From NCBI GenBank assembly GCA_025617375.2, contig JAMYGW020000002.1, positions 2,914,001-2,978,000 on the forward strand: a stretch of 64,000 bases of DNA. The letters are read 5' to 3'. A program made the translations under genes and the position numbers. This document shows, piece by piece, positions 2,294 to 35,270 of this stretch. How positions within the stretch are numbered: position 1 is the first letter of the stretch; every line of letters begins with the position of its first letter. The notes under the pieces are model-generated. The model was given only the letters and a program-made list of their open reading frames with translations, did no database searches and was not told the origin of the DNA. Source of the DNA: Acarospora socialis (lineage: Eukaryota; Ascomycota; Lecanoromycetes; Acarosporales; Acarosporaceae).

Positions 2294-2653
2294 TGTTACA
2301 ATCATGTCTGAAGAGAAAGAAACTCATAAGTCTGTGATTAAGAGTTTATCTGAAGTGCATACAAAAGAAACTGCTAAATAGCAGTTACATAATAATGCAA
2401 TGACTCAATGATGAGCAGATGAGTCAAGAACTCAATTTCTCAATATTGAAACATCAAAACATCAAGAATACTCAACACAGAGACATCAAGCACATTCTAT
2501 ATAGTAAAATTGATTTTTTTATGAAATTAATCATGTTCAACTTAAATAATCATCTAAGAGTTAAAGATCAGAATCATTTCAGATCAACTGTTATATCAAT
2601 AAGTACAAACTTTTAGTTCTACATATCTGAGAAATCTCAGATTAGAACATTAT
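2294..2653 (+). repeat. 5' LTR of gypsy fossil 1
   Basis: A 360-bp terminal repeat matching 8,159-8,519. Its last ~170 bp (from a TATATAG box to the end) is shared with the LTRs of all gypsy copies 1-3 and the solo LTR at 55,335. The first ~190 bp is shared only with copy 2. Confidence 0.9.
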
Positions 2654-5600
2654 ACTTTGAACATTCTTACAATATAACAAGTATGATGTCTGACACACAG
2701 AAGAACATCTCAATCTTGTTTTTAAAATAAACTTAAGTGAACTCATCTCTATCATTTACTTCAGATAGAACAACAACACAATCAGCAATGATGTCAGTTC
2801 AAACAATACAACTATCTCTAAGTGCATCTAAGATACAGATATCAGATATTTTTGATGAAGAATGAGAAAAACTGCAAGTCTTTGTAATGAAACTCAATCT
2901 ATATATTGAATTCAATCAGCTGAAGTTTCAAATCAATTAAGAGAAAACATTGTTTGCAACAATCTATCTTGTGAATGCAGTCTTTAATTGAATTAATTTC
3001 AAGTTGCATGAGTTTCTAGAGAAAGAATATGAGAAATGTAATGCAGATGTGAAGTCTATGTTTAATGATTATGCACAGTTTAAGAAAGAACTGAGAAAAG
3101 TCTTTAAAATGATTGATGAGAAGAGAACAGCAAAGAAATAAGTTTATATCTTATGACAGAGTGAATCAGCAGCAGTATACATCATTGAGTTTCAGCAGTT
3201 AGTGATACTTATTAAATAAAATGATGAAGCACTCATCTATCAGTACTATTGTGAGTTGAGAAAGTTCATTAAAGACAAAATAACTTAAGCAGAACAATCA
3301 GACAATCTTTAGAGAATGATTAATTTGAGTATCAATATTAATAATTGTCAGTGAAAATAACAGATGAAACAAAAAGAATATTGAATGTTATCTATGATAA
3401 AAGATCAAGAAGAAAGCTTCTGATTGTGAATTAAGTGATATGTTTTATTAATAAAACATAGAAGAACAAACTCTATAAATCTTAATATAATCAAGAAGCA
3501 TCATCAGAAGTCATAAAAGACTAAATAAACAGAGTATGAATGTCAGTCAGAGTGATTCACTAAGTCTCAGATGACACTGCAAAATGAGATATGAATGTAT
3601 TATAACTGTGAAAAATTCAGACATCTTGTCTGAGAATGTAACAGATCTTGAATAAAAAGAAAAAATGTTGCAGTGACAGTCAAGAAGAATATACACATAG
3701 TGCATGACATTCTCAGCTGAACAGTCTGCTACAATAACATATGCAAAGTACACATGAACATAAAGAATAAAACTGAATAATATTCTTAAAAGTCATATAA
3801 TAAAGATATTAGAGACAGACACAACATGACAGATTGATTAAACTACAAAAAAGAATTAACTATTTTTGCAAAAGAACATATCAAGAAAGATGTTCTTGAT
3901 ACTGAGATTGAAGAGATCAATACTTAAGAAATTCAGATAAAAGAAGACTACAGCAATAACATCTGACAAGCACTGAATTTAAATGCAAATCAGAAAGAAA
4001 TCAATGAGTAAAAAGTCAATATAAAACTGAAGACAGCATATCAGCATTCTGAGAATCAATGTTGAATGTTAAAAGAAGAAAAGCTTCAATTTAAGAAGCA
4101 AGAGCTCAAGCAAGAAATGCAAGCTTGAAAATGAAAAGCACAACACAAAAATGTGAAAAAACAAAAAACATATGATCAGCTAAAAGAGCTGATGATAGCT
4201 GTTAAAGATGAATGTCTCAACAGTGACAATGCAGTGTTGTCAAAATTTCTTATTTGAAAAACAAAGAGTCACAAGATTAAGATATGCTTATTTGAAGAGA
4301 ACATCATGCAAAATAAAGACAGATGAATCTTCAGCAAAAAGTATATATCATTTGAATTTCTGCAAAGAGTAAAAGTCTTTGAGAGTCAGTTGCAAATAAA
4401 GTATAATCAGTATGAACTTTGATTACACTCAGAAAGACACATTGAGTGATATAGTTTAAAGTATGCAAATTTTATGATCAAAAAAGAATTAAAGTGATTT
4501 CAAGAACTTTGAAGACAAACTGAACAATTAAATGAGTCAAAAAACAAAAAGCTTTCTTGATGAGACTAGAGAACAAGAAGTTAATGATGTCTCAAAAACA
4601 AAACAATAATCATTGAATATAAATCAAGATCATGATCAGTGAACATCATATTAATACATTGATGAATTCTGAAACAGACAGTAATATTATGAATCAAAAA
4701 ACAGTCAATATGTTAAAATTGAAGACACAGTGAGCACACTGTTCATTTAACATACAAATGATAAACAGAGTCATTGAGAGAATCAATGAGAAAATTTGTG
4801 TGAAAGTCTCAATTCTTGAAAATTCACAAGAAATAATGTTTGATGTTATGAAATCAATCAAATACAACACAGTGCTAAAGATGCTCTGATTGTGCAGAAA
4901 AAATTTGAAGATTGACTGAGTTACAAAAGAAATATGTACAATTAAAAACACATATAAGATTTCTGAACAATCAGAAATGAGTTTATTAGAGTATAAGTTA
5001 TGAGATTATGAAATATCACTATTGAATGAAAAGCAATCTAAATAAATGTCATTATACTCAATGAGTAAAAATCAACTCAAGAAAATTAAAACTTATCTTG
5101 ACAAGAATCTCAAGAGAGAATTCATAAAATTATTAAAATCACTGACAGAATATCTGATTCTGTTCATATTAAAGAAAAATGACAAGAAATGACTATGTGT
5201 CAACTACAGACAACTTAATGAGATAACTCATTGAGATAGTTATTCTCTATTGTTGATAGAAGAGTTGCAAGATTGATTAAACAAAACTAAGTAATTCACA
5301 AACTTAGATCTTAAGAATGTCTATTATCAAGTTAAAATGAAAGAAGATAAAGAATGAAAAACAGCATTCTGAATGAAATACAGACATTATAAATACACTG
5401 TTATGTTATTTAAATTGAAAAATGCATCAGTCATCTTTCAGAGATTAATCAACAATATACTGAGAGAATATCTTAATGATTTTGTGATCACATATCTTAA
5501 TGATATTCTGATATACTCAGAGAATCTTGAGAAACATCATAAATATATGTGCAAGATATTAGCAAAGCTCAATAAGAAAGTTCTGTACATGAAAAAGTCA

Positions 5601-7719
5601 AATAGTAGATTCAAAATCAAGAAAGTTGAGTTTTTAAACTATGTGATTTGATTTAAACAAATCAAAAAGAATTTAAAAAAGACAGAAGTAGTCAAAGACT
5701 GATTAACATCAAAATAAATCAAGAAAGTACAGATCTTTCTAGAATTGATGAACTATTATTGAAAGTTTGTATCAAACTATGCAAGAATTGCAAAATCACT
5801 AACACATTTAACACACAAAAGCAAAAAATAACACTGAAATCAAGAGCAGAAGAATGCATTTCACATATTAAAAAAAAGTTTTAGTAAAACAGCACATCTG
5901 AGAATACTCAATTCAATATGTAAGAAAACACTGAAAATTAATGCTTCAGATTTCACAGTAAAAACATGTTTATATTAGATTGAGAATGAGCAACAAAAAT
6001 TCATAGCATATCAATTTAGAAAACTATCAGAACTCAAGAAAAGATATGAGATTTATGATAAGAAACTTCTTACAATAGTGAAAGCACTACAAGATTGAAG
6101 ATTTTATTTTGTAAAAACAAATAAATCAATTCAGATCTATACAGATCACAAGAATCTGAGAAATTTTGCAACAACAAAATAACTCAATCAACAACAGATT
6201 TATTGAGCAGAACAGTTGACAGATTATGAATTTCAAATTTATTACAAAAAAAATAATGAAAATGATGAAGCAAATATCTTAAGTAGATAATTTGATCATG
6301 AAGATGTACAAATAATACACACTGAAATTCTGAGCAAAAACAATGAAAAAGTTCTCATGAAGAACTTAACAGCAATATATAAGATGAAGTAAGTTTTCTT
6401 GATGAATAAAGAACTCATTAAAATATGTTACTACAGCAGAACTGATGAACATTTAAAAATCAAGTGCACTGAGAATTTAATGCAGAGAAGATACAATGTT
6501 AACAATTTTAGAAATTGAATCATCAAAATAATTGCTGTATACAATTCATATCAAAGAAATAGAATCAGTTAAGATAGATAATATGATGAAGTAATATGAT
6601 TAAATACACTGAATGCATCATGAAAGTCAGTTATCATGAACTTCATTATGAAGCTATTACTGTCTAAGAATTCAGCATGAAAAGTAAAATTTGATAATAT
6701 ATTGATTATAGTGAACAGATTGATCAAGTACACAATGTTTATTTTATTCAAAGAAACTGTGACAACATCAGTATTGACATACATCATACTGTGAGAATTA
6801 ATTAACAATCATGAACTATTAAAAGAGTTTATCATCAACAGAGACAAACTGTTTACAAGTAAATTTTGAAAAATACTCACAGCAGAACTTGAGATAAAAC
6901 ACAAGATGTCAATGACATATTATTTACAAATGAATAAGTAAAGTAAACAAATGAATCAGACAGTAAAAATATATTTGAAACACTATGTCAATAAAAATCA
7001 AAACAACTGAGTACAACTGTTATCAACAGCACAGTTTATGTACAACAACGTAAGAAATGAAATCACAGAAGAAACATCTTTCTATATGAATTATGATTAT
7101 AATTCAGAGATATGATGAAATCTCAAAGAACACAGATCATAAAGTTAAAAAGTGATTTTAAATATCATTCAAATAAAAAAACTGCATCAAGATCTGACAA
7201 GACAAATTAAACAGCAGATGAAACAAACAATAGAGACAAAATCATTTGAAGAAGAAAAAAATATATATTTAAAAACAGACAACATACAAATTAAAGAAAA
7301 AAGCAAAAAGCTGAAGAACAAGAGCATTGAATTATTTAAGATTATATGAAATATTAAAGAATGAAGCTATGAGTTAGATTTACTTAAGAAAATGAGAATA
7401 CATTTAATATTTCATGCATTCATGCTACAGCATTGTGATCAGTTTATATCACTTTAAATCACTGAAATATCTGTTAAATTCAAAGAAAAATATGAAGTTA
7501 AAAACATTTTAAAAAAAAGAATGATTAGTGAAAAAGTTCATTATTTCATTAAATGAAAAGATTACAATATCTCAGAAAATATCTGAGAATTCAAAAAGAA
7601 TTTCAAGAACTGTGTGAAAACACTTCAATATTTTAAGAAAAGAAGTTGATATTAATTCAGAAGAATGACAATATTGAGTTAATAAGTTATAACATTGTTT
7701 GAAAATCTTCATTCTCAAT

Positions 7720-8083
7720 TTCATCATTATCACTATCAAGTTCAACAGCAAAACAATTGATCTTTTGTGCAGTATGACAATCTGTTTGATTCAAAGTTTT
7801 TTAAAAATGCATTATTTTGATAGTAAGAACATCAAGAATTACATTTACATTATTTATTTTTTTTTGAAGAGAAAGACAAGTTCTGTTGAGAGACTTTTAC
7901 AAAATTGCAACATAAAAAATGACTGTGATGAGTACACTTATCATATTTTGATCTTTCATCAATTATAACAAAATAATTAAGACTGCAAGCAGTACAGAAT
8001 TCACAAGAAAACATGATGAGATTATCACTGAGTTGAATTTTCTTTGTAATTCTTAAATGATTGAAATTTTTAGAAAGCATCAT
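7720..8083 (-). pseudogene. Antisense Cys-rich frame inside gypsy fossil 1
   Basis: On the strand opposite to pol, between the chromodomain and the 3' LTR, a frame begins MMLSKNFN and carries a C-x2-C ... C-x2-C type cluster (CEFCTAC). The same frame, with the same start and Cys spacing, appears at 10,950 in gypsy 2 and 26,178 in gypsy 3, so it belongs to the element family and not to chance. It is degraded like the rest of the element. The function is unknown. A small zinc-binding accessory protein is one possibility. Confidence 0.5.
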
Positions 8084-8158
8084 TGCTGATAATGAAAGTT
8101 ATTATATATCTTTGCTTAAATAAATTCTAGAGAACTAACATCTGAGAAAAAAAAATGA

Positions 8159-8519
8159 TGTTATGATTATATCTGAAAAGAAAGAAACTTATAAATCTGT
8201 GATTAAGAATTTATCTGAAGTGCATACAAGAAAAACTGCTAAACAACAATTACATAATAACACAATGACTTAATGATGAGTAGATGAGTCAAGAGCTCAA
8301 TTTCTTGACATTGAAATGTCAAAACATCAAGAGTGCTCAACACAGAAACATTAAACACATTCTATATAGTAGAATTGATTTTTTTATGAAATCAATCATG
8401 TTCAATTTAAATAATTATCTAAAAGTTAAAGATCAGAATCATTTCAGATCAGCTGTTATATCAATAAGCACAAACTTTTAGCTCTACATACTCAAAAAAT
8501 CTCAGATTAGAACATTACA
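8159..8519 (+). repeat. 3' LTR of gypsy fossil 1
   Basis: A 361-bp repeat of 2,294-2,653, followed by the CTCTT target duplication at 8,520-8,524. Confidence 0.9.
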
Positions 8520-8639
8520 CTCTTTAGATGTGCTGTCTCATGCATTAAAGATAGATTATTGAAGATAATATGTTCATGTACTAGCTCTCTCAGATCTAGA
8601 TATTCTTGATAGTGTGATTAATTAAGATATGAGAATTCT

Positions 8640-10160
8640 TCATCAAAAGTAAGTACTAAATGCTTCATATCAATATAAAGCTGAGTCATGACATTCATAC
8701 ATCAATCAAGAACAGCAACAGACAAATACTCATCAACATTTACTGAAATTAGTTCAGAGAAGAACAACATGAAGAAAACAAGTTTATTATATGTAGTCAT
8801 CTCTTCTAAAAAAATCTCAAATAAAGCTGTCTTTGACTGAATTATTAAATCTGATGCATTAACAAAATAATGATAAAGCATTTATGACTGATCAGATATA
8901 CAGTTTAATTGATTTTTTTGATGTTGAATCTTATGATGATTTCAGATCTTGACAAAAGAGATAACTTTATATTTAAGAACTGATATATAGATTGTATAAA
9001 GCAATATATGATCTGTCATCAAATCTGCATTAAAGATATTCTCTTTAAAAAGATTTCTGAAGTAAATCTGTTGTTATATTAGTATAGAAAAATATTAGAA
9101 TGAATCATAACTTACTTGTCAGCAATAAACAAGTGTCTTATTCAGTTGATTTCATCATGATTTAATTCTTTGATTCTTAGTGCTTATCTCAAAAAAGAAA
9201 CAGTTCTTGAACAAGATATCAGATTTCTGTACTTGATGAAGATAATGATGTGCAGCAGTAATTAGAGATGTTATCATTTCTTGATTGACTTGTATAATCT
9301 TTGAAATCTTGTTTGTCTTCTTTGCTGTATCTAGAAATTGTTGTAAGATGCTTATACTGATATGAATTGACACATCAACATATATTCAAATAATGTATTG
9401 AAAGTATGCATTGATAACTTCATATATCTTGAAATTAAATAAGTTCAGCTTGCAGTATTCATCTATTGATTATATAAAATTGAAATTTGACACAATGAAT
9501 TGATCTTGATGACATTGTAGATTGTATTGTTGCTGTATTACATTTTCAGAATCAAGAATTTTGACAAGCTCAAAGAGTCAATCACTACAGAGTGTAAGTA
9601 AATACTGTAGATCAGAGACAGTTCACTTTACTGTGATATTATATAGTTCTGCTTTCAGAAGTGAGCATGAAGCATATTTTGATTATATTTCTCTATATTT
9701 TTCTTCTATAGTTCAGCTAGAACAACAGAAAGTATTTCTGTGTCTGCAGTCTCTCTTTTCTTTATTGCAACACATTTCTTAATTTTAAGCTTCTTCTGTA
9801 TATGTATAAAAAAGATCTGTGTGATGTTGTGATCTTCACTTTTTAAAATTTAAAGTATTTTCTTATCAGATAGTCATAACATGAATAGATTCTCAATTCA
9901 ATTGTAAAAGTGATCACTGATGTCAGAACAATTGTTCTTAGTGATTTTTCAGATGCATAGTTGAATTTTAAGAATTTATATGTCAATATAAATGTAATAG
10001 TGATCTTGTAGAATTCAGTGTATCTCTAATATTGTTGTATTATTTTGAGATAACTGAAGAATTTACTCTTGATATTCTTCTAGAGAAATGACTGAACACA
10101 GCATTGTTATGTGAGATAGTTATATTGTAACAAGTGATCTTTCTCATACTGATATGAATG
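8640..10160 (-). pseudogene. Decayed integrase-core (DDE, rve-type) transposase
   Basis: One minus-strand frame can be followed from about 10,160 to 8,640 with stops only at codons that RIP would create. Its centre (about 9,420-9,090) matches the integrase core also seen at 34,150-34,510 in this window. Shared landmarks are an aromatic Y-I-Y-V strand after the first acidic region, a LQQFLDTAKK helix, and the block FFFEISTKNQRIKS, which corresponds to FFNISTANQQIEA in the other copy. Acidic catalytic positions appear replaced (N where the second D is expected, K where the E is expected), so it is inactive. It lies on the same strand as, and downstream of, the helicase gene at 16,744-22,607, interrupted by gypsy 2. 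The exact ends of the gene are not visible. Confidence 0.6.
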
Positions 10161-10315
10161 ATTAGAGATGATGTGTCAAGAAGATGATGACTTAACAATA
10201 GTCATGTGATGTTCTAGTTAGCTGTGCAGAAATATTGACAATTGTATTTGTTTTAAACATCATAAATTTGAATTTTAGAAGCAAAGATCTGAGATAGTGA
10301 TTTCTACTAAGTGTT

Positions 10316-10513
10316 TTAACACTTTAATTCTTCTAGAGTTGTGAAATCATGTATTAACTTTTTTTTCTCTGTCTTCATCATCATATTCACATTTTCTTCT
10401 TTTACTTCTTCAAGTTCTTCAGCACATCTATCTTTCACATTTTTCTTCTTTTTATCTGTTATATCTTCATCATCTACATTCTTCATAACAACATTCTTCT
10501 TCATCACAACAAG
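10316..10513 (-). pseudogene. Lys/Glu-rich coil segment continuing from 16,744
   Basis: The minus-strand frame 10,507-10,316 is rich in K, E and D (MMKKNVVMKNVDDED..., KKKKNVKDR). It joins in frame across gypsy 2 to the equally charged frame 16,872-16,744. It therefore seems to be an interior or C-terminal charged, probably coiled-coil, part of the decayed helicase gene or a short gene right behind it. No domain is recognisable. Confidence 0.45.
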
Positions 10514-10874
10514 TGTAATATTCTAATCTAAGCTTTCTTGAGTATGTAAAACTAAGAATTTGTGCTTATTAATATAACAGCTGATCTGAAACAGTTCTGA
10601 TCTTTAACTTTTAGATAGTTATTTAAGTTAAATATGATTGATTTCATAAAGAAATCAATTCTACTATATAGAGTGAGCTTGATGTCTCTGCATTGAGTAT
10701 TCTTGATGTTTTGATGTTTTGATGTTGAGAAATTGAGTTTTCAGCTTGTTTACTTGTCATTAAGCTGTTATGCTGTTATGTAACTGTCACTCAGCAGTTC
10801 TTTCTGTATATACTTTGAGCAAATTTTCAGTTATAAACTTATGAGTTTCTTTCTCTTCAGATATAATTATAACA
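10514..10874 (-). repeat. 3' LTR of gypsy fossil 2
   Basis: A 361-bp terminal repeat, the partner of 16,378-16,738. The element is reversed, so this left copy is its 3' end. Confidence 0.9.
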
Positions 10875-10949
10875 TCATTTTTCTCTTTCAGATGTTAGTT
10901 CTCTAGAATTTATTTAAGTAAATGTATATAACAACTTTCATTATTAGCA

Positions 10950-11340
10950 ATGATGCTTTCTAAAAATTTCAATTGTCTAAGAATTACAAAGAAAATTCAA
11001 CTCAGTGATAGTCTCATCACATTTTTATGTGAATTCTGTACTGTTTGCAGTCTCAATTGCTTTGTTATGACTGATGAAAGATCAAAATGCAATAAGTGTA
11101 CTTGCTGCAGTTATTTATGTGTTGCAGTTTTGTAAAAGTCTCTCAACAGAACTTGTCTTTCTCTCTGAAAGAAAATAAGTGATGTAAATGTAATTCTTGA
11201 TGTTTTTACTATCAAAATAATGCATTTTCAAAAAACTTTAAATTAAACAAATTGTTGTACTGCACAGAAGACTGACTGTTTTGCTGTTGAACTTGATAGT
11301 GATAATGATGAAATTGAAAATGAAGATTCTCAAACAATAT
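10950..11340 (+). pseudogene. Antisense Cys-rich frame inside gypsy fossil 2
   Basis: This is the counterpart of the frame at 7,720-8,083. It has the same MMLSKNFN start and the block CEFCTVC ... KCNKCTCC, followed by an acidic tail (ELDSDNDEIENEDS). It is opposite in sense to the element's pol frame and degraded. Confidence 0.5.
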
Positions 11341-14300
11341 TATAATTTGTTAATTCAATATTGTCATTCTTCTGAACTAACATCAACTTTTTTTTTCAAA
11401 ATATTGAAGCATTCTTGTGCAGTTCTTGAGATTTTCTTTGAGTTCTCAGATATTTTCTGAGATGTCATAATCTTTTCATTTAATGAAATAATGAATTTCT
11501 TTATTAATCATTTTCTTCTTTAAAATTTTCTCAACTTCATATTCTTCTTTGAATTTAACAAATATTTCAGTAATTTGAAGTAATATGAACTGATTGCAAT
11601 GCTGTAACATGAATGCATGAAATATTGAGTGTATTTTCATTTTCTTGAGTAAATTTAACTCATAGCTTAATTCTTTAATGTTTCATATAATCTTGAATGA
11701 TTCAATGCTTTTGTTCTTCAACTTCTTGCTTTTTCTCTTAATCTGTATATTATTCATTCTTAAATATATTTTTTTTTCTTCTTCAAATGATTTTGTCTCT
11801 ATTATTTATTTCATTTACTGTTCAATTCATTTTATTAGATCTTGATGTAGCTTCTTTATTTAAGCAATATTCAAAATTGCTTTTTAACTTTATGATTCAT
11901 ATTCTTTGAGATCTCATCATATCTTTGAGTTGTAGTCATAGTTCACATAGAAAGATGTTTTTCTTGTGATTTCATTTTTTGTGTTGTTGTATGCAAACTG
12001 TGTCATTGATAACAGTCATATTTAATCATCTTGAATTTTGTTGACATAGTATCTCAAATATGTCTCTACTATCTGATTCATTTATTTGTTCTGTTTGTCT
12101 GTCTGTAAATAATATGTTATCAACATCTTGTGTTTTATTCTGAGTTCTGCTGTAAGCATTTTTCAAAATTTGCTTGTAAACAGTTTGTCTCTGTCAATGA
12201 TAAACTTTTTTGATATTTTATAATTGTTAATCAATTCTCACAGTATAATATATGTCAATACTGATGCTGTTACAGTTTCTTTGAATGAAATAAATATTGT
12301 GTATTTGATTAATCTGTTCACTATAATCAATATACTATTGAATTTTACTTTTCATGCTGAGTTCTTTGACAGTGATAACTTCATAATGAAGTTTATAATA
12401 ACTGACTTTCATAATGCATCTGATGCATCTAGTTGTGTTATTTTATTGTATTGTTTATCTTAACTGATCTTATTTCTTTGATATAAGTCACACACAGCAA
12501 TCATTTTAATGACTTAATTTCTAAAATCACTAACATTGTGTCTTCTTTGCACTAGATTCTCAGTGCATTTAATTTTTAGATGTTCACTGATTTTGCTGTA
12601 GTGACACATTTTAATGAGTTCTTTGTTCATCAAGAAAATTTACTTCATCTTATACATTGCTGCTAAGTTCTTCATAAGAACTTCTTTATTGTCTTTGCTC
12701 AGAATTTCAACATATATTATCTGTATATCTTCATAATCAGATTGTTTACTTAAGACATTTGTTTCATTATTTTCATTATTCTTTCTCTAATAAATTTGAA
12801 ATTCATAATCTGTTAACTGCTCTGTTCAATAAATCTGTTGTTGATTGAGTTGTTTTGTTGTTGTAAAGTTTCTCAGATTCTTGTGATCTATATAGATCTG
12901 AATTGACTTACTTATTTTTATAAAATAAAATCTTCAATCTTATAATGCTTTTACTATTGCAGAAAGTTTCTTGTCATAAATTTCATATCTTTTTTTGATT
13001 TCTGATAGTTTTCTAAATCAGTACACTATGAATTTCTGTTGTTCATTCTCAATTTAATATAGACATACTTTTACTGCAAAATCTGAAGCATTGATTTTCA
13101 GTGTTTTTTTGTATGCTGAGTTGAATATTCTCAGATGTGTCATTTCACTAAAACTTTTCTTTAATACATAAAATGCATTCTTCTGTTCTTGATTTCAGTG
13201 TTATTTTTTGTTTTTGTGTATCAAATGTATTAGTGATTCTGCAATTCTTGTGTAGTTCAGTACAAACTTTCAATAATAGTTCATTAACTTTAGAAAGATC
13301 TGTACTTTCTTGATTTATTTTGATGTTGATCAGTTTCTGACTGCTTTTATCTTTTTTAAATTCTTCTTGATTTGTTCAGATTAAATTACATAGTTTAGAA
13401 ACTTAACTTTCTTGATTTCAAATCTGCTTTTTGACTTTTTCATGTACAGAACTCTTTCATTGAGCTTTACTAATATCTTGTGCACATGTTTGTGATGCTT
13501 TTTAAGATCTTTTAAATATATTAGAATATTGTCAAGATACATGATTATAAAATCATTGAGATATTCTCTCAATATGTCATTAATTAATCTTTGAAAGATG
13601 ACTAATGCATTTTTTAATTTAAACAACATGACAGTGTACTTATAATATTCATATTGTGTTCAGAATGTCATTTTTTATTCTTTATCTTTTTTTATTCTAA
13701 CTCAGTAATAGACATCTTTAAGATTTAAGTTCATGAATTACTTAATCTTGTTTAATCAGTCTTGCAACTCTTTTATTAAAGATAGAGAATAATTATCTTG
13801 ATGAGTTATCTTATTGAGTTGTCTGTAATCAACACATAGTTATTTTTTGTCATTCTTTTTCAGTACAAACAGAATCAGGTATTTTGTCAGTGACTTTGAT
13901 GATTTTATGAATTTTCTTTTTAAATTTTTGTCAAGATAAGCTCTAACTTTCTTGAGTTAATTCTCACTCATTGAGTACAATGACATTCATTTAGATTGTT
14001 TTCTGTTCAATAGCAGTATTTCATGATTTCATGACTTATACTCTGATAAGTTCATTTCTGATTGTTTGAAAATCTTGTATGTGTCTTTGATCACACATAT
14101 CTCTTTTATAATTCAATTAATTTTCAGATTTCTTCTGCACAATCAGAGCATCTTTAGCACTGTGTTGTATTTGATTGATTTCATAACATTGAATGTTATT
14201 TCTTGTGAATTTTCAAGAATTGAGACTTTCACACAGATTTTCTCATCAATTCTTTTGATGACTTCATTTATCATTTGTATGTTGAATGAACAGTGTACTC

Positions 14301-16377
14301 ACTGTGTCTCTAATTTTAACATATTGACTGTTTTTCAGTTCATAATGTTACTGTCTGCTTCAGAATTCATTAATATGTTGATATGATGTTCATTAATTAT
14401 AATCTTGATTCATATTCAATGATCATTGTCTTATCTTTGAGACATCACTAGCTTCTTATTCTTTAGTCTTGTTAAGAAAGCTTTTTATTTTTTGACTCAT
14501 TTGATTGTTCAGCTCATCTTCAAAGTTCTTGAAATCACTCTGATTCTTTTTTGATCATAAAATTTGCATATTTTAAATCATATTGATTAATGTGTCTTTC
14601 TGAGTGTAATCAGAGTTCATACTGATTGTACTTCATCTGCAACTGACTCTTGAAGACTTTTACTCTTTGTAGAAATTTAAGTGATATATACTCTTTACTG
14701 AAGATTCATCTGTCTTTATTTTGCATAGTGTTCTCTTCAAATAAGCATATCTTGATTTTGTAACTCTTTATTTTTTAAACAAGAAATTTCAGCAATACTG
14801 TATTATTACTGTTGAAATATTCATCTTTAACAGTTATCATCAGCTCTTCTAGCTGATCATATGTCTTTTATTTTTTCATATTTTTGTGTTGTACTTTCTG
14901 TTTTCAAGTTTGCACTTCTTGCTCAAGCTTTTGCTTCTTAAATTGAAGTCTTTCTTCTTTCAATACTCAATGTTAATTCTCAGAATGCTGATATGCTGTC
15001 TTCAGTTTTATATTAACTTTTTATTTGTTGATTTCTTTCTGATTTGCATTCAAATTCAGTGCTTATCAAATATTATCACTGTAGTTTTTTCTTATCTGAG
15101 TTTCTTGAGTATCAGTCTCTTCAATCTCAGCATCAAGAATGTCTTTCTTGATATGTTCTTTTGCAAAAGTAGCTAATTCTTTTTCATAGTTTGATCAATC
15201 TGTTGTGTCATGTCTATCTTTAATGTCTTTATTGTACAGCTTCTGAGAATATCATTTGACTCTGTCTTTTGCACTCATGTGTACTTTATACATGTCATTG
15301 TAGCAGATTGTTCAGCTGAGAATATTGTGCACTACACATATATTCTTTTTAATTATCACTGCAATGTTTTTTCTTTTTATCTGAAATCTATTACACTCTC
15401 AAACAAGATGTTCAGATTTTCTGCAGTTGTAATATATTTATATCTTGTTTCACAGTGTTATCTAAGATTTAGTGAACTGCTCTAACTAACATTCATACTT
15501 TATTTATTTAGTCTTTCATGACTTTTGATGACACTTCTTGATTGCATTGAGATTCATAAAGTTTGTCTTTTTATGTCTTATCAGTGAAACATATCACTTA
15601 ACTCATGATTAAAAGCTTTCTTCTTGATCTTCTATCATAAATGACATTCAATATTTTTTTTGTTTCATCTATTGTTTTCATTGACAACTGTTAATATTAA
15701 TACTCAGATTAATCATTTTCTGAAGATTATCTGATCATTTTGCTTGAACTATTTTGTCTTTAATAAACTTTCTCAGTTCACAATAGTACTGATAGATGAG
15801 TGCTTCATTATTTTATTTAATAAGTACTGTTAATCACTGAAACTCTGTGACATATACTGCTGCTGATTCATTTTATTACAAGATGTAAACTTGTTTTTCT
15901 GCTACTTTTTCTTCATTAATTACTCTGAAGACTTTTCTTAATTCTTTTTTAAACTGTGCATAGTCATTGAACATAGACTCTGTGTCTGCATTGCATTCTT
16001 CATATTTTTTTTTTAGAAATTCATGTAGCTTAAAGTCAATTCAATTAAAGACTGCATTCATGAAATAGATCATCACAAACAATATTTTCTCTTGATTGAT
16101 CTGAAACTTTAGTTGATTGAATTCAATATATAGATTAAGCTTTGTCACAAAGATTCACAGCTTTTCTCATTCTTCATCAAAAATATTAGATATCTGTATC
16201 TTAGATGCACTCAGAGATAGTTGTATTGCTTGAGCTGACATCATTACTGATTGTATCATCATTCTATTTAAAGTAAATAATAAAGATGAATTTGTCTGAA
16301 CTTATCTCAAAAACAAGATTGAGATGTTTTTCTGTGTGTTAAACATCATACTCATTATATTGTAAGAGTATTCAAAG

Positions 16378-16738
16378 TGTAATATTCTAATCTGAGCTTT
16401 CTTGAGTATGTAGAATTAAGAATTTGTGCTTATTAATATAACAGCTGATCTGAAACAGTTCTGATCTTTAATTCTTAGATAGTTATTTAAGTTGAATACA
16501 ATCAATTTCATAAAGAAATTAATTCTACTATATAGAATAAGCTCAATGTCTCTGCATTGAGTATTCTTGATGTTTTGATGTTTCAATGTCAAGAAGTTGA
16601 GTTCTCAGTTTATCTGCTCACTGTTGAGTTATTATGCTGTTATATAACTGTCACTCAGCAGTTCTCTCTGTACACACTTCAGACAAATTTCTGATCATAG
16701 ATCTATAAGTTTCTTTCTTTTTAGATATGATTATAATA
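16378..16738 (-). repeat. 5' LTR of gypsy fossil 2
   Basis: A 361-bp repeat of 10,514-10,874, followed by ACAAG (16,739-16,743). Confidence 0.9.
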
Positions 16739-18000
16739 ACAAGTTTACTCTTTTCTTTTTCTTTTTCTTCTGATGTCTTTATCTTCTTAATTAATGCTGA
16801 TTCTTGCTTAATCTGAACTGCTTTTGTTTCTTCTCTCTTTTTAAGTATCTTTCTGATCTTTTTTTGAGACATTTTTTAACTTAAATGTCACTTTGTTTAA
16901 TTTAACTCTCTTTGATAGTGTTCTGACTCTAACTTCATATTAATATAAGATTAATAAAGAGATCAGTCAACTTATCTGCTGCTTGTCTCAGAAAAGAGTG
17001 AGTATAATTGATGAATTATCTTTGTATTTAGCAACATTTGCTTCTCAATGATCTTGAACACTGTGACTGATAAAGCATTGTAGTTAATGTAAAAAGTAAT
17101 TTTCAAATGAGATACATCTGCATTAAAGTGAGTCTGACACAACAGAATTAATGCATATTCAAGAACTTTTTAATCATTAAGATTCATATCAGTATAGATC
17201 TTGTTGACATTTAGATCTAAAACAATTTGAATATTCAGTTTTTTCTGATCATAGTCTTCTTGAATTAATGCTGACTTGATTTTTAACTCTGTCTTGACTT
17301 CTTGAAATGTTGTTGATATCAGATCTTCAAAGTATTTTACATTATCTTATTTATCAGTGTTGATGTTCTGATACTTCTTATTGCTGTTATGATTGTTTAA
17401 AGAGTTCTTATCACTACTTTTTTCTTTGAATTTCTTAAATTCTGAATCTAATTGCTTTAAATCTCTTTTTTGTTTCTCTTTTTGTTGAACACTTAACTTA
17501 TTCTCAACAAACTCTTAATATTCAGAATTCTCAGTATAAGTCTGAAGAGTATATTTAAACTGAGAGACAATCTGATCAGATCTAATTATAGTAGTAGTAG
17601 TAGTCTTTTTGACAAAGACATCAGATGTGTCTGCAGCTGCTGAGTCTGCAGTGAAGTTCTTTATATTCATATAAAGATCAATCTTTTCAGAGACAGCTTT
17701 AATCAGCTGTTCATTCTTTTCTGTATTGAAAGAAAGAGCTTTTTTTGTTGCAGTCTCAGTTTCTTTTTTTTCTTTCATCAATTTTTTCTTCACTGCTTTT
17801 TCTCTGACACTTTTCTGAATCTTTTGAACATTCTTGTTTGCATTATTGAGTAGATGAACAAGTAATGTCTGAATGAGTAAATTATTTATTTAAGTTGCAA
17901 GTTCAGCTCTGATCTTCTTCATTGCTTTAAAGTCTTGATATTTGTCATGACTGTTTTGAACTTTAATTTGAAGAATGAAAACATTCTCAGTTTGAAAGAT

Positions 18001-18047
18001 CTGTTCTTATTTAGTTCAATCTTCATATTGATATAAAAAGTTCTCAT
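18001..18047 (-). other. Probable 47-nt intron in the decayed helicase gene
   Basis: Helicase motif VI is read in one frame up to 18,048 and continues (IFQTENV...) in another frame from 18,000. The 47 bases between fit an intron: a donor of GTGAGA type (first base now A), an internal AACTAA branch-like site and an AACAG acceptor. Because 47 is not a multiple of three, removing it restores a single frame. The palindrome family member at 18,021-18,037 lies inside. Confidence 0.6.
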
Positions 18048-20607
18048 CTGTAACATTCTGTCTCATGTTTGAATTTCTACAGCAATATTGACTGCAGAAG
18101 CTGCAATCAAGAATTTTGAACAGCACTTGTTAAGATTGATCTTCTGTGCTGAGACAGCATATATGACAATGAGTATCATAAGATTAAACTTTGAGTCATT
18201 AAAGTCTTCAATCAGCTTTTTTCACTCATTGACATTGAGATATGCTGCTAGAATTCATGCATTAATATGTAAGTAATTAAAAATACATTTATAGAATCAA
18301 ATCACAACAGAAGTGTTCTCTGTTATTATTATCTTTCTAGAAACAGAGAAGAGTGCTGATGATAGAATATAGTCATGAACTTGTGAAAAAATGTAGCAAA
18401 ATATTGATGATTCAGAAACTAGATATTTAATCTGTTTCTTTTAAGTCTGTAATGCTGCATCATCAGTCTTCAAAACATGCTTGATCAGTCAATTCACATT
18501 GAATTCTGAAAAGATATATTTGATTATGTCTTCAATATTTGTTGATAGATTTATCTTCTACATTGTCATATTTAAACAGAATAATCTTATTACTGTGAAG
18601 CTGATGCTCAACTGATGAAACTGATCAGCAACTGAGAAAAAGATTCTCTTTTTGTTGTCTGAAGTAACAATAAGATTGAGTTTGTCTTCATTACTGAGTC
18701 ACTGCTTGAAAGTTTTTGTCAGATTTCTTAAATAATCAGAGTATGTTCATACTGATATAGAAACAATATAAACTCATTTTACAACTACTCAATGTTATCA
18801 CTGTATTTCAGACTTTTCATTCTTCTGATACTTCATTTCTACTGTTTTGACTGTGTGACTGAGCATCATTAATATTAACAATGTTATATTTTCTTTGATG
18901 TTTCAGATCAAAACTGATGCTGTTGATCTTCTGATTGAGATTAAGTTGTTAATATAGAAAAAGTATTCTTTCATCTTGTTCAACTTGTCACAAACAATCA
19001 CATTAACTCTATGCTTCATATCAGTATAGAGTTTAATATATAACAGTGAGTAGCTCACAGTTCTGACTGCAGAATACACAGTTTTTGCATCATGTTTTTA
19101 CTTTTGCTAACTTTTACAATCATCTCTGTTTCATTTTGAAGAACTTTCAACAGATATTCAATGTTGTTGTTATTTTCATAGATGACTGTTTCAATTCAAA
19201 ATCATAGCACATGTATTAGTTCAGTAATGTTCTAAGAGATGAGTGAGCAGAGTTTCATATTACTATGAAGATAGATCAATCAATAGATTGTTGATTGAAG
19301 ATGTAGCAGTGATGAATTAATGATAAGAATAACTCAGCAGTGTAACAGCTACATGAGTCTTGATGTCTCTGTTTCTCAATTGATGTTTTTTATTCATGAA
19401 AACAAGATCTATCATGCTCTTTCAATTCAAGAAGTATTTCAGCTTCTCTTTTAATTTCTTCTTGATCTCAACTATCTTAATTCTGAACTGTAGTGTTCTG
19501 CTATGTTATATGTTATAGTTTGTAAGAATGATGACTTTGAAGATGTTAGAATTGATTTAATTTCATATATATCTTGTCTGTTTTGATCATTTGTCAAAGT
19601 CTTAAGATTCAAGTTTCATTGCTGCACTATTGACTCAGTTCAGCTTTGTCTGCATAAATTTTTCTGATGACTTATCTTCATATACAACAACAATGATAAG
19701 CTCAGAAAAGTCTTTCTTTTTTATTTATAATCATTAATTAAGCATCACTTCTGAAGAACAGAGTAAAAGAGATGACTTGTGAATCTTTATATTGTTATGA
19801 CAGTATATAGCATAAATGTTAAGAAAGAAAAATGCAGAAGAAGTTTTACTGAAACTTATAATATCAGAAAGAAATTCTTCAAATGTCTGTGATTCAGAGA
19901 TAAGCTTTAAGTCATTGAAGATGTCAATATTGATGTAGAAAAATGAATCATCAACATGTAAAACAAATTCAAAAGTTCTTTGCAACATAAAAACTGCAGT
20001 GATTATCTGTAAGTCAAGAAACTCAAATTTGAAGCAAATAAGTTGACATTGACTCTTATTGAGTAACTTCAATGCATCATACTTCAATGTTGTTTTCATT
20101 TCAAGTAATCTCTTTAATAACTCAACAAAAGAGTCAATCTGAGCTTGATTATCAGTAAAGACAGCTTGAACACTGAAATATATGAACTTGTTCTCAATCT
20201 CATCAATTTAGTAATGCATGTCAGTCTTCATATTAATATAAAGAAGTATCAAGAAAAAACTTACATCAGTAGACATATTTGCTTCATGCTGCAACTTTTT
20301 AAGTTTCTTGAGTGCTTTACTCTCTTTTGTGATTGTCTGTTTGATGATTTTGATTGTAGTCTTTGACTGTGACAGTGCTATGCAGATCTTATTGATCATT
20401 TTAAGTTATCATTTAAGAAAAATTTGAGAATTTCTGATGTTCATGTTTGAATAGATCTTTTCAAATTGAGAGAAATTTCACTTATGAACATTGTGCAGAG
20501 TGTCAAAGATTAGTTACTTTGTAATATTAGATGATAGCATAATACATTGTTCTTCACATCATTTCATCTTTAGCTTTTGAAGATCTTTCTTTTTCTATGA
20601 CTCTGTT

Positions 20608-20712
20608 GATGAAGCAGCAGTCTTTAATGATGAAGCAGCAGTTTCTGATGATAAAGCAGCAGTATTTGATGATGAAGCAGCAGCTTTTGATAATGAAACA
20701 GCAGCTGTGAAT
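20608..20712. repeat. Five tandem 21-bp units
   Basis: Five head-to-tail units of 21 bp beginning GATGAAGCAGCAG lie within the helicase gene's N-terminal half. On the minus (coding) strand they give an S/T/A-rich heptad of the type SETAASS. They vary mainly by transitions, so the array existed before RIP. This is a low-complexity linker, not a CRISPR array. Confidence 0.8.
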
Positions 20713-22142
20713 TGCATATCAGTATGAATACTATCAGAAAAATTTTGCTTAATATTAATATAATCATTCTGATTTCTTCAGACAACATCTTCTGTCTTAT
20801 TAATCTTAATGATATTTTCAATAGTCAATGAGAGCTCATCATACTCTCATGAATATTCATCATTCACATTCACTATCTTGAAAGTGTAAATAAACATGAT
20901 CTTGTCTTCTTTGACTTCAGCAAGTCAACTGATGATAGTATTTCAAGATTCACTGAAATTTTTGAAAAAAAACAGACACTCTGTCTTCTCAATCTGAATA
21001 TTGATGCTGATGAAGTTGATTTCAAGTTTTAAAAAGATCAACTATTATCATAATTCATTTCTTCACTGATCAGCACTATGATATTCTTGAGAATCACTGT
21101 TGACAGCTGTTTTGATGAGTGATATAGCATAGAGTTTTTGATCAATATAGATGAAGATATGATTGTTAAGATTCTCAGTATAGTGTATGATGTGACTTTT
21201 GTTTCATATCAATATAAATGACAGTGATTACAAGACTGACAATTGATCAAATGTGCTTGAAGCATCAGCTTAAGTGTGAACTCATATTCAAAATAATTTA
21301 TAATCTTCTGTAATCACTTCTGATACATATAAATCATTAATTTGTGAATTATAGAAGTTAAGAAAACACAATGATGACAGAGTACTTGTGAGTGACTGAA
21401 GAAGATTTAAAATTCTATTGATAAACTTCAGCAGAGTTTCTTTCTGAAATGAATTAAGCTTGAAAAACTCTGTGATAGAAGTCATGTCAAAATTTGAAAT
21501 CTTCACTTACTTATGACAGTTGTTTAATCACTTCAAGAACTTCTCTTAACATCTCTTGACTTGTTCAGATATGTAGTCAATAGTCTGCATACTTTTATAT
21601 GTATATAGAAGAAGATGCACAAGAATGTTTGTCAGCATAATGTTCTTTTGAGCTTCTTTTTAAATTGCTTTCACTTTTTAAAGATTGACTTGAATTCTGT
21701 CAAAAGAGTTTGATTCTTTAACTGTATTTTTCTTCTCAGAAATAAACTGTCAAATGTTACTGATTATTGAACTGATCTAAATAGTTTTGTAAAGTTGATA
21801 CACTTCAACAACAGAATATGTAAACTGAAACTGTTGAAAGATTTCTCTGTTGATGAACTCAAGATAGAAAAGAAGTTTTGATTTATTTGTTAAACATTGA
21901 AGAAAAAGATTCTCTATCTTTGCAGATATCTCATTGACTGAATTCTTTGTTGATGTTTATACTTCTTTTTCTTTTGTCTTAATCTGTAAAGAGTTAGCTT
22001 CATACTGATATGAATATAATGCAAAAACTCATTATCTTTGACTGTGAAGTTTCTGCTTTTGAGAATGCAGATTGCTTTGAAGTTGAAGATGTTTCTTTTG
22101 TAGTAAGATTTTTGACTGACTTTCTGACAGACTTTTTAACAA

Positions 22143-22310
22143 ACTGACTGATGAGCTGACTGATAAACTGATTGATGAACTGACTGATGAACTGACTGAC
22201 TAACTAATTGATGAGCTTGCTGCTGAACTTGTTTCTGAACTTGATCTTGAACTTGAGCTTGAACTTGAGCTTGAGTTTGACTTTGAACTTGCTGATGAAC
22301 TTGCTGACTT
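22143..22310. repeat. 12-bp tandem repeats in the helicase N-terminal exon
   Basis: Two adjoining arrays of degenerate 12-bp units, GATGAACTGACT-like (22,143-22,205) and CTTGAACTTGAG-like (22,225-22,285), produce alternating hydrophobic/charged or Gln/Ser-rich peptides in any frame. On the minus strand they lie between the first two candidate introns. Confidence 0.7.
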
Positions 22311-22526
22311 TCTTTGTTTAAAGCATGATTAGTTTTATATTAATATGAAGATGATTTGAAGACTTAATGTCTTTTGTAATGTTTTTGATTCTTTATTTTC
22401 TTTATTTTCTTCATCATCATTATTTAAATTAAACAATTCTGAAAATTCAAAATCAGTCACTTCTTTGACAGCTTGTTTTTAAACATCTTTGACTGTCTGA
22501 TTCTTCATATCTTTGACTGTCTGATT

Positions 22527-22586
22527 CTGATAAAAATAAGTCAGTCTTAATTCTGTATTGATATGAAGATGACTTTAGATACTTAC
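22527..22586 (-). other. Probable first intron (60 nt) of the decayed helicase gene
   Basis: GTAAGT donor, a GACTGAC branch-like site and a TTTTTATCAG acceptor on the minus strand. It follows a 21-nt first exon (MTSHTRA) and leads into an acidic, Asn-rich N-terminal segment. A palindrome family member lies near its middle. Confidence 0.55.
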
Positions 22587-22607
22587 TGCTCTTGTGTGAG
22601 AAGTCAT

Positions 22608-23680
22608 TCTTGATGTGAAGCAGAAAAAAGAGTATTGTAAGTAGATATTTAAGTTTTAAGAAGACAAGTGAGTATTATGAGTGTGATTGTGAGCAGAAGT
22701 GTGTCTGTTGTGTTTGTTATGATGTTGTGATTTTGTGATGTTGTAGAGTGTTGTAAGTGTAAAATGAGATGAGATGTAATGAGTGTAAGATGAGATAAAA
22801 TGAGTAAAAGATGTCATAAGTGTAAAAGTAATCTTGATAACAGTAATCTTGATGACAGTGAGCTGAGTGATAATGAAAGAAACTGAATATCAAGAGCACT
22901 TACTTCACAAGTCAGAACATTGCAGTAGATATTGAAGAAAGTTACTGATCAGTAATGTATGTGTTGACAGCAGATCAGCTTGTTAAATGATAAGAAAAGA
23001 AGATGAGTTGTGATGTGATAAAAGACAAGATGTTGAGATGAAGTGTTAAGAAGATTATAGACTAAAAAGATTAAAAACACACTCAGTTGTATCAACACTT
23101 CAGACTTGAGACTTTTCTTATGATTTGATGTAAAGACATGCTGTACTTAAAGTAGAAAAGAATGATATAGAATAAATTAAGTTCTTCACTTTGTAAAATC
23201 TAAATCATGATAGCTTTCATGACTGTAGAATTCTTAATACTGATATAAACATGATCTCTACATGAATCTGTATCTTTAGAAATGATATGAACAACAAGAA
23301 TGTGTAGTGTGAGCAGCTGTTTAAAAGCATAGAACAAGAAGATGCTTCTCTTTCAATCTGACTGATTCAACAACTCTGTGATGCTGAATCAGAACAGTAA
23401 TGTGATATTGAGTATACAGAGTCTATTGTCTCTGATCATGTCATATTATATGTTTGAGTTTAAGATACAGATTCTCTAATAAAATAAACATCAATTATAT
23501 CTTGTGAAAAGAAGTTAATTTCTTGCAGTATGCTGTTGATGAATATATCAGCTGATAGTATATATGTCAATCTTCATATTGATACAAGAATGAACAGCTT
23601 TATATATCTTATACATTACTAATTACATGAACATACATGAGTTCTATCTTCTTTCTACATATAATCTACAGCTGTTTTCT
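22608..23680. other. AT-rich 5' flank of the helicase locus, no gene seen
   Basis: No sustained frame exists in this kilobase. It holds purine-rich GATGAGATG-like runs (22,740-22,830), a 15-bp direct repeat around AATCTTGAT (22,828-22,857) and two palindrome family members (about 23,236 and 23,567) in intron-like settings on the minus strand. Normal base composition begins at about 23,680. Confidence 0.5.
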
Positions 23681-24341
23681 ATTGGACTCATCATTTTCAA
23701 ATTGCAATTTTCAGTTTTTGATTTTTGATTTTTGATTTCGCGAAATCGCGAAATGGGTTATTGCCCTTTGCTCAATATAGGCTGCCGTACTCTGACCCCT
23801 GGGACCCAGACTGTCGGTCTAACTAGTGCAGAACTACTCGGATAGTGAGGAGTGATCTCTTCAACATGACGAAAGAACATGATGGTTTCTGATGAACAGA
23901 GAATTAGGCATTAGTGTAGTCCCCTTGAAGGTGCAATTACTCAGAATCACTTGATATTGCGCGACGATATAGCGGCACTCACCCAATAACCGATATGGGT
24001 GAGATTGGGACAGTTTCCGCTTTCTTGGCAGGGCAACCGTTTTTCCGAAGCTTTCTGCTCGTTCCAATTGAAGCCCGGATGGGGAAACTGACCCTTCCAA
24101 CGACAGGAACTCGTCCATAAAATGTCATGGGTCGCTCGGGCAATTGAAAAGAAATGTGACATGATTATTGGGACGATGTAGTAGTACTGACAATGGCCTG
24201 GATTACCTTTAAATGGGACAGAGTGTTTATATGTAGGTATGACACAGTGCGTATCGTATGGTGATCTTGCAAAAGCTTGAACATTGTCACATGGAGGTCT
24301 TGAAGGGTGCACTGGACGCATAGAAGAGTAGAACTTCATAT
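23680..24341. other. Start of GC-normal island; 3' flank of EMC7
   Basis: CG, CC and GG reappear abruptly here. At 23,714-23,754 three TTTTTGA repeats lead into ATTTCGCGAAATCGCGAAAT, a double CGCG palindrome. Open frames on the minus strand (24,339-23,947 and 24,118-23,861) lack family matches or coding character and are treated as 3' flank of EMC7. Confidence 0.55.
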
Positions 24342-33510: not shown

Positions 33511-35270
33511 ATGTCAGCACAAGCTGTGAATCTTAACTTCTGCAAAAACTATATCATATAACTGTTTTAAGAAAATCACTTCAGTCAAGATATTAGCAGA
33601 AAACTTCAAGATGAGTTGAACATCACTTGTAGTTATTGTACAATTGAGCAAAGATTGCAAGAATAACAAATCTCAAAGAAAATTAAAATCATTGACACTT
33701 CTGAACTACAAATTAAGATTGTTGCTTTGTTTTATAAAGTATGTCTCAATAATGTTCAAATACTACATGTATTGCAGAAGAAAAAACATGAAATTGAATT
33801 ATATAAAATTGTATGATTACAAAAAGAGATGAAAATAATTCATTGACATTCTCTGTTTGACATTGAAGAAATAAAAGAAGAAATAACACAGTTTGTGTTG
33901 AAAGAGTTGAATACTGATGTTATTGATGAATATAAATGAGAATTGCTTTATATTCATTTTCATACAAAAAAATTCAACATCTGTCAATATATTGTTTTAA
34001 TTCTATTTCTGATCACTTTCTGACATGTTATATCAAAGATTGTTTGTTTAATATGATCAAACATTTAAATTCTTAAGATCACATTTGTTGTACAAAAAAT
34101 CTTCAATGTTAACATAAAGAATATATTGTGTCAGAACTCAATTATCTATAATTTATTGATGATCATGATAAACTGTTCTGTTGAGACATTAAGATTTATG
34201 TTGAAATTGATGTTTATTTTAAATACTTATCATGAATTTATATTAATATATCAAATTATACAACAATCAATATGCTCTGTCAGTATCTGAATGTTGTTTG
34301 CAATCTGAAAGTACATTCTCAAATTTTGTGCTCTGATTGAGACAAGAAAACATTATTATGTATGAAATTTCATCATACACTGAGTTATATAACTGCAAAT
34401 GAACATACACATCTGTCAAAGATTTATTTCTTTAATATCAGCACTGCAAATCAACAAATTGAAGCTTGATGAAGTCAGTTAATCAAAAGTCAACTGTTTC
34501 AATGATGAATAAGTTATTTCTATGTTGATATTACTTTATACAATTTATTAAATAACTTGTACAGACATTTTTCAGAGATCTTATGCAGCAAGATCTTTAA
34601 GATGATATCAGTCTTGCAGATTGCATCATATTAGTGATACTGTATATGTTCATTATTCAGTGAGAAGTTTATAATTATATGAAATTATAAAATGTTCATC
34701 TTGTACAAAAGCAACTCAATTAATCAAATTCAGTAATGAGTAATTCATAAATGTTATATCATTGTTCAGAAATTATCAACACTGAGAATTATGTGTTGAG
34801 AATGAATGAAGAAGTGATGATGATCATGTGAGCATTATATAATGATTGAGATAAGTCTTCATCACAATTAATTGTACAATAAATACTGACTAAAAAGATG
34901 TTGATGAATATCTTTTTACTGCAACTTTTAAATGATTTACATCATAATTACAAGCATTGAGCATAGTTCTGAAAGATATAAAAGCAGAAAATGTTCTTGC
35001 TGATGATTTATGACATCATGTTAAGATATACAAGTAATTATATATTATTGTATGATCACATATTGTCTTCAAAATACATTCAATTTTGACAGAATCTGCT
35101 AAATCTTATAAAGATTATGCATATCAAAACAGAGAGCTGATTGAATGTAATGAACATCATGAGTTAAGTAAGAATTTTGCATGAAATGATGATGAAGCAA
35201 ATTTTATTGAGAATGAAATATCTGCTGATGTTAATTCAAAAGATATGTTGAATGTTTATCTTCAGAAATT
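33511..35270 (+). pseudogene. Integrase-core (DDE) transposase of the inverted-repeat transposon
   Basis: A frame starting at ATG 33,511 (MSAQAVNL) can be followed with only RIP-like stops. The N-terminal part (to about 33,930) is a helix-turn-helix-like region with ELNITCSYCTIEQRLQ and DTSELQIKIVALFYK, as in a widespread fungal transposase family whose members carry an integrase core. The core spans 34,150-34,510 with an acidic triad: D in IDDHDK (34,158-34,160), D in ILCSD (34,335-34,337) and E in ANQQIEA (34,461-34,463). The spacing is 58 and 41 residues, right for a DDE enzyme. The C-terminal third is acidic. Such enzymes cut the element ends and join them to target DNA. The gene is inactive here. 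Confidence 0.7.

Follow-up and report, generated by a model that had tools for sequence, protein, structure and literature searches.

The VANC proteins of Arabidopsis VANDAL transposons are described as binding a short word of their own element family and lifting silencing, and the word of VANC6 is reported also from an unrelated element, AT9TSD1, and as rare in relatives (PMC5735166). Fungal IS3EU transposons are described as having TAYGG..CCRTA-type ends, terminal repeats of more than 30 bp and target duplications of 6 bp (PMC12730594, PMC10045372), and some accounts add TET/JBP dioxygenases, another candidate anti-silencing tool, to their cargo (PMC12730594). Here we analyse a stretch of 64,000 nucleotides from Acarospora socialis (contig JAMYGW020000002.1, positions 2,914,001 to 2,978,000; hereafter the window), in which a 16-bp palindrome recurs through an IS3EU-type DNA transposon that was killed by repeat-induced point mutation (RIP) and interrupted by two long terminal repeat (LTR) elements. 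The recurrence is real, and stronger than a first-pass annotation of this DNA had stated.

A palindrome spaced along one transposon

Two patterns were used for scanning, a strict one, TTCATAYYRRTATGAA, and a RIP-aware one, TTYATAYYRRTATRAA. At up to one mismatch the strict pattern has 10 matches in the 11.18 kb of segments that predate the LTR insertions and 0 in 48.6 kb from elsewhere in the window, almost entirely AT-rich; in 300 dinucleotide shuffles of the segments its count averages 0.013, with a maximum of 1. The RIP-aware pattern gives 19 matches in the segments and 2 in the other window DNA, with a shuffle mean of 0.08 and a maximum of 2. The first-pass annotation had claimed that the copies are confined to the pre-insertion segments, which the target duplications CTCTT and ACAAG mark as once contiguous, and that they are scarce in the other AT-rich DNA of the window; both claims hold, and the dinucleotide-shuffle null it had proposed does not reach a similar count. 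All 19 places that it listed carry the motif within 10 bp, although calling them near-exact was generous at 1590, 2078, 22553 and 23567, where the strict pattern is missed by 3 bases each time.

Across the whole joined element, RIP-aware matches at up to one mismatch number 20 in 12.2 kb, one of them left of the window. An AT-rich control, made of fetched loci elsewhere in the genome (only tiles below 36% GC; L025 and L026 excluded, being contained in L034 and L035), holds 3 RIP-aware sites in 91,456 bases. Parts of the word rank top in a motif-independent k-mer scan, and when all gapped palindromes are scanned (gaps 0-12, low-complexity poly-A/T half-sites excluded) it is the best in the element, with 12 copies versus 4-5 in six shuffles. 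Chance or composition as the source of the element's sites is rejected by the shuffles, the gapped-palindrome scan and the AT-rich control together.

The 20 sites are spaced 239-973 bp apart, with a mean of 605 bp and a coefficient of variation (CV) of 0.387, and a CV as low as this has P = 1e-5 among 200,000 uniform random placements of 20 sites. Overlapping matches were merged for this test, and the one-mismatch RIP-aware cut-off was already in use before evenness was looked at. As a control, 62 hexamers that occur as 16-24 spaced copies in this element all have a CV of at least 0.553. The first site, at L017:4279 in the stretch that includes the part of the element left of the window, lies outside recognised coding and 171 bp inside the element's left end; its mirror is a weaker site with two RIP-aware mismatches at 23573-23588, about 0.2 kb inside the right end. 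Inward from the left follow an exact copy at 150-165, copies with one RIP-aware mismatch at 774-789 and 1589-1604, and a weaker one with two at 2076-2091. The copies at 10143-10158, 16934-16949, 18022-18037, 18746-18761, 19254-19269 and 21203-21218 belong to the same series, and the remainder are taken up below with their coding context.

The pre-insertion locus is one RIP-killed DNA transposon of the IS3EU type, 12.2 kb long, as identified by its inverted ends, TACGG..CCGTA termini, CTCTGA duplication and weak integrase-core match. With the two LTR insertions removed and the part in L017 included, the joined element has 12,218 bases. An inverted match search pairs its 83-bp terminal inverted repeats, the left at L017:4108-4190, some 0.9 kb before the window starts, and the right at 23707-23789 on the minus strand (matching as 23789-23707). 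The element begins TACGG at L017:4108 and closes CCGTA at 23789, which fits the fungal IS3EU ends, and the 6-bp target site duplication CTCTGA can be read from the sequence at L017:4102-4107 and 23790-23795. TA..TA termini, a 6-bp duplication and terminal inverted repeats longer than 30 bp, as tested for IS3EU, are thus all present. A RIP-mutated integrase-core (transposase) coding stretch on the minus strand at 8909-9493 matches PF24764 with E 7.8e-4 and 19.6 bits, below the 26-bit cut-off. Used as a query it matches 52 genomic stretches, counting itself, with some places represented by two pieces; the others show 25-40% identity, with stops, and PF24764 is matched in one of five scanned relatives, at 20.2 bits likewise under the cut-off. 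A transposase-family search of the genome gave nothing at E 0.001, though its controls were also silent, and a PDB search with the integrase stretch gave 0 matches. No alpha-kinase or TET/JBP Pfam match was found in the frames scanned (six frames over 1-2293 and 8525-10513, minus frames over 16747-23640, with stops as X). The two later insertions are gypsy 1 at 2294-8519, with its target duplication CTCTT at 2289-2293 and 8520-8524, and gypsy 2 at 10514-16738, inverted relative to gypsy 1, with ACAAG at 10509-10513 and 16739-16743; neither LTR element holds the palindrome at up to one mismatch.

The terminal repeat, used as a genome query, returns four stretches, among which are both ends of this transposon. 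Of the two others, one marks the edge of a different AT-rich element that lacks the palindrome (L061/L062, C5:555200-565199), and one is a solitary end within GC-rich DNA (L060, C1:3097216-3097281). At the transposon itself, CTCTGA follows CAGGGG at the left end and precedes CCCCTG at the right end (L017:4096-4107 and window 23790-23801), so that the empty target would itself be nearly palindromic; a preference for near-palindromic targets is possible. Further along the window, at 34125-34733 on the plus strand (C2:2948125-2948733), the same transposase family is represented by another, diverged integrase stretch, with no strict palindrome near it at up to two mismatches.

Introns, peptides and hairpins

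The first-pass annotation had suggested either multiplied introns or a dispersed protein-binding site. Copied, introner-like introns would carry the word between donor and branch point, and one textbook intron does: a 60-nt intron on the minus strand at 22527-22586 (GTAAGT..CTGAC..CAG; a by-eye reading of the frames puts it in phase 0, behind a first exon of 7 codons) has within it the weaker copy at 22552-22567, which has two RIP-aware mismatches. The likely reading frame also appears to change across the copies at 22334-22349 and 21999-22014; the latter is exact, and the possible intron there fails the strict test. That test, for GTRNGY, CTRAY and YAG within 45-110 nt, was applied to 23 of the 27 RIP-aware sites at up to two mismatches, including 19786 and leaving out 631, 9073, 9977 and 20749. 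Two of the 23 sites pass on the minus strand, compared with 0.9% of random places, and none on the plus strand; besides the clear intron around 22552, the only pass is a poor 104-nt candidate at 23573. The copy at 20227-20242 lies downstream of a minus-strand GTAAGT, with no intron demonstrated.

The surroundings of the sites argue further against copied introns. Their flanks, 25 bp on each side, have a likeness of 0.297 versus 0.295 for random places, so there is no larger repeated unit around the palindrome. The copy at 9351-9366 lies in coding that the first-pass annotation had already called conserved; it is integrase coding, and its alignment with the 10 relatives examined shows no gap there. 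An open frame runs through 17660, and in the gypsy A family, described below, the word sits in the gag frame and in coding before the reverse transcriptase. Because the flanks are unrelated and the 9351 copy is gap-free in coding, introners are not the explanation, and the multiplied-intron suggestion is hardly credible. The category of introner-like element was likewise dropped, with a splice-flanked unit at 2 of 23 sites, no similarity of intron length and, at 9351, the one site compared, no insertion absent from relatives.

A second rival places the repeat in proteins: if large proteins repeated [LFI]-[HY]-[TI]-[GDNS]-M-K every 100-300 residues, the palindrome would be the codon string of that peptide. 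On the minus strand the frame that gives this reading, here called the HTGM frame, contains the fewest stops around 14 of the 20 sites, shares the lowest number at 2 and is outdone at the other 4; some preference is to be expected, since in one of the three frames the word itself contains a stop. Measured in the joined element, five consecutive intervals between 8664 and 17660 are divisible by 3. In their fewest-stop minus frames the copies at 8664-8679 and 17183-17198 read LYIDMK and IYTDMN, and those at 17660-17675 (LYMNIK), 19015-19030 (LYTDMK) and 20713-20728 (IHTDMQ) lie within open minus frames of 124, 64 and 60 residues. The pattern of kept bases speaks against a repeated peptide. The core ATA....TAT, two silent third positions included, is unchanged in all 20 sites, and since the sites were picked at up to one mismatch, the list would have taken in any site with one synonymous change. 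The Met codon is frequently lost (TATAAA) at sites where the silent bases are kept, and besides the copy in the intron and the one at L017:4279, the copy at 23234-23249 lies outside recognised coding. At 9351 the element has Ile where 10 of the 10 relatives examined have Asn, and this Ile supplies part of the palindrome; the change to its codon, ATT, would not be attributable to RIP because C-to-T mutation cannot make it. We read the word as a DNA-level signal that the genes accommodate; a peptide repeat we consider rather improbable.

The word can also fold, with a self-complementary loop, and might act as an RNA hairpin or kissing loop in transcripts. Covariation, however, is absent: one pair is changed on both sides, a value at least equalled in 498 of 500 shuffles, and paired cells make up 88.9% versus 89.3% when shuffled. 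We attach next to no credence to such a role.

The same word in other repeat families

Genome-wide, the strict pattern has 14 exact matches (control 0) and 102 at up to one mismatch (control 1). The 36 exact RIP-aware sites (control 1) are divided among this element (7), gypsy A (10), family C (6) and unassigned places (13). With 23 of the 36 in three kinds of element, neither the even genome-wide distribution that, by the first-pass annotation, would have spoken against its observation nor a word spread over the whole genome is supported. The excess is largely a matter of copy number, because most of the contexts looked at fall into few repeat families; in families B, D and E the word was seen in 416-base pieces, one site each.

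Gypsy A is known from a copy at about C2:976230-982357 with LTRs of about 184 bp. One of four stretches searched with Pfam has RNase H and RT_RNaseH_2 over the cut-off, and reverse transcriptase and integrase zinc-binding matches below it, in Ty3/gypsy order; the others yielded a weak RNase H match in one case and no match in two, and a Pfam search over six kilobases of one copy was likewise empty. All 12 gypsy A copies, the query's own included, keep the palindrome just before the reverse transcriptase at up to one mismatch, and 9 of the 12 are perfect by the RIP-aware pattern; the query leaves out the palindrome, but derives from a copy first found by it. Arm identity is 0.938, compared with a mean of 0.669 and a maximum of 0.879 in 403 other windows. 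The flanks here are coding in the HTGM frame, with third positions 0.563 identical and 13 of 133 invariant, and of the word's own five third positions three (offsets 1, 4 and 10) are invariant, the others standing at 0.83 and 0.33 (centre). The 12 loci together hold 28 sites (12 before the reverse transcriptase, 8 in gag and 8 elsewhere) where the AT-rich control predicts 1.5, counts that are not independent because the copies are related. TTCATA also leads the half-sites when the first copy is scanned for palindromes, with 6 sites versus 3-4 in shuffles. The gag site reads Ser-Tyr-Gln-Tyr-Asp (L018).

Family C has one site per 3-kb locus looked at (L009, L012, L013 and L015). Two of its relatives, one unmutated and one partly mutated, have TCCATACYRGTATGGA, read as Pro-Tyr-Gln-Tyr-Gly in a gag-like protein, and in the unmutated one a second, near-match lies 402 bases off. 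Since the family C form codes a peptide and RIP would turn TCCATA into TTCATA, some of the surplus across the genome is a coding coincidence that RIP merged and copy number multiplied. RIP can thus fake a shared motif, which calls for caution in motif work on RIP-mutated DNA. An earlier labelling of family C as a long interspersed nuclear element (LINE) was dropped, the less mutated relatives being gag-like in appearance. L075/L048 (C2:1778160-1778874) is a GC-normal, unmutated family C relative with an open gag-like frame, in contrast to heavily RIP-mutated kin elsewhere. At L021:79-900 (C5), an open frame of 274 residues with RNase H-like and zinc-binding-like features, recognised by eye, stands in an AT-rich stretch and may be the remnant of a LINE that RIP has largely spared.

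Such convergence is also a rival explanation for the transposon's own sites: different ancestral words, with the help of composition, would have merged into TTCATA..TATGAA, and the count would be an artefact. CC, CG and GG are practically erased by C-to-T mutation in window 1-23640 and in most AT-rich stretches (observed/expected 0.00-0.02), while CA and CT remain, in excess. What happened in family C is a case of this process. The adjoining DNA, however, is equally RIP-mutated and almost without the word, the shuffles that gave a mean of 0.08 preserve the missing dinucleotides, and the sites are evenly spaced; convergence is a very unlikely source of the series. As to the RIP signature itself, a kingdom-wide survey describes a CpA preference shared by RIP-like defences (PMC12543289). 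CpG alone is not new, since truffle and anther smut are among the fungi with reported CpG signatures (PMC4352252); a CpC-plus-CpG form at saturation looks unusual.

The same mutational preference bears on the ancestral word, for which the first-pass annotation had proposed a CCGG centre that RIP turned into the variants now seen. A CCGG centre is plausible, though unproved: the unmutated form TTCATACCGGTATGAA has 3 matches genome-wide at up to one mismatch, of which one, in GC-rich DNA and with an altered arm, keeps CCGG. As for the variants, RIP here removes CC and CG but leaves CA, and so RIP alone would not make TTAA centres or TTTATA arms. The ancestral arm would not be fixed either, because RIP would turn a TCCATA arm into TTCATA. 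With degenerate arms, TTCATACCGGTATGAA has 8 matches: 2 in the gag-like family C relatives, 2 in RIP-mutated repeats, 1 in GC-rich DNA and 3 unassigned.

No translated similarity was found between the transposon and gypsy A, and a word common to two such unrelated element classes could be the site of a host factor, a chromatin or centromere-like protein or a regulator, gathered by transposons with no transposon-encoded protein involved. The rarity of the unmutated form speaks against this explanation, which we regard as unlikely, though by no means negligible.

A candidate protein site and its nearest analogues

We infer that a dimeric, sequence-specific protein binds the palindrome. Judged from the sequence, the word is quite probably a DNA-level protein site, and the dispersed protein-binding site suggested by the first-pass annotation fits as a candidate. 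Even spacing over genes, intron and both ends, palindromy and occurrence in an unrelated element as well suggest a protein that has to touch the element's whole body; recognition of the ends by the transposase would be insufficient as a reason because it would not need body-wide sites. The putative protein would recognise the palindromes at intervals over the full length of the element, and may be the transposon's own product or one recruited from the host. It might keep the element's chromatin open or shield it against silencing all along, as VANC would, and gypsy A might profit from the same protein. By analogy, an anti-silencing role is possible, and a factor of this kind encoded by the transposon itself is our leading guess, put forward tentatively.

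A more specific version has a transposon-encoded protein seeding about every 600 bp, which would leave no bare stretch for a premeiotic homology search or for heterochromatin spreading and would make a body-wide shield against RIP and silencing, later used by the gypsy family. We think this improbable. In Neurospora, 155-220 bp of homology is reported to suffice for RIP of closely placed repeats (PMC4858203), and the present copy is RIP-mutated to near saturation, whatever the palindrome did.

That state of the copy also counts against our main explanation, and several further observations weigh on the same side. Evenness depends on the cut-off, with P at 0.21 for 7 sites, 0.043 for 11, 0.002 for 18, 1e-5 for 20 and 2.5e-5 for 28, so that the strictest cut-off taken alone would show none. 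One reading phase predominates in the genes, as a peptide-level repeat would also give, and some of the gypsy sites, that in gypsy A gag included, may be coding coincidence (Tyr-Arg/Gln-Tyr in Gag). Nine relative loci of the transposon hold 0 strict sites and 1 RIP-aware site; two relatives extended to 8 kb and the 10-kb element edge with the similar terminal repeat hold none at up to one mismatch, and no other dispersed palindrome in these three stretches rises above shuffles. A 5.8-kb DNA query matches itself alone, and no second copy of the transposon was found with which conservation could be compared. Nor did a binding protein appear: Pfam in the scanned frames gave the weak integrase core and nothing else, and nothing VANC-like among these RIP-destroyed genes. 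With these points set against the excess and spacing of the word, the whole explanation, a RIP-killed IS3EU-type element with the palindrome kept as a DNA-level recognition site at fairly even intervals, seems to us about as probable as its contrary.

Among described systems, the host element is closest to the fungal IS3EU transposons, including Styx of Zymoseptoria, in its TACGG..CCGTA ends, long inverted repeats, 6-bp duplication, weak integrase core and further coding, as far as these are described (PMC12730594, PMC10045372, PMC10853768). It is longer than Styx, at 12.2 kb versus the 7.9 kb given for that element, and it differs from IS3EU in its evenly spaced internal palindromes, which we do not claim as unreported since some IS3EU literature mentions palindromes. 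In the papers searched the palindrome word itself does not occur, and a literature search for evenly spaced palindromes in fungal transposable elements found no matching title. Fungal introner-like elements and sister stwintrons are also described as repeated symmetrical sequences in fungal genes (PMC8469720). In contrast to these, the present word has no shared unit beyond about 16 bp and few of its copies lie in introns. The DNA uptake sequences of Neisseria and Pasteurellaceae, too, are a short word that runs through genes with fairly even spacing and a preferred reading frame; they are bacterial, whole-genome and non-palindromic, and offer an analogy only.

The likeness to VANC and VANDAL is of another kind: a short word is enriched in one transposon (20 sites here), occurs in an unrelated element too, and is rare in the relatives examined. 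The VANC motif, however, is described as directional and dense, mostly in non-coding tandem repeats, whereas here isolated palindromes stand about 600 bp apart, many of them in coding and with random flanks. If the protein site is true, a transposon would be marked along its genes, and not merely at its ends, by evenly set sites, and two unrelated element classes of one genome would use one word. The window would then hold a fungal counterpart to the sequence-specific anti-silencing of plants, and its word could serve as a concrete bait for the protein.

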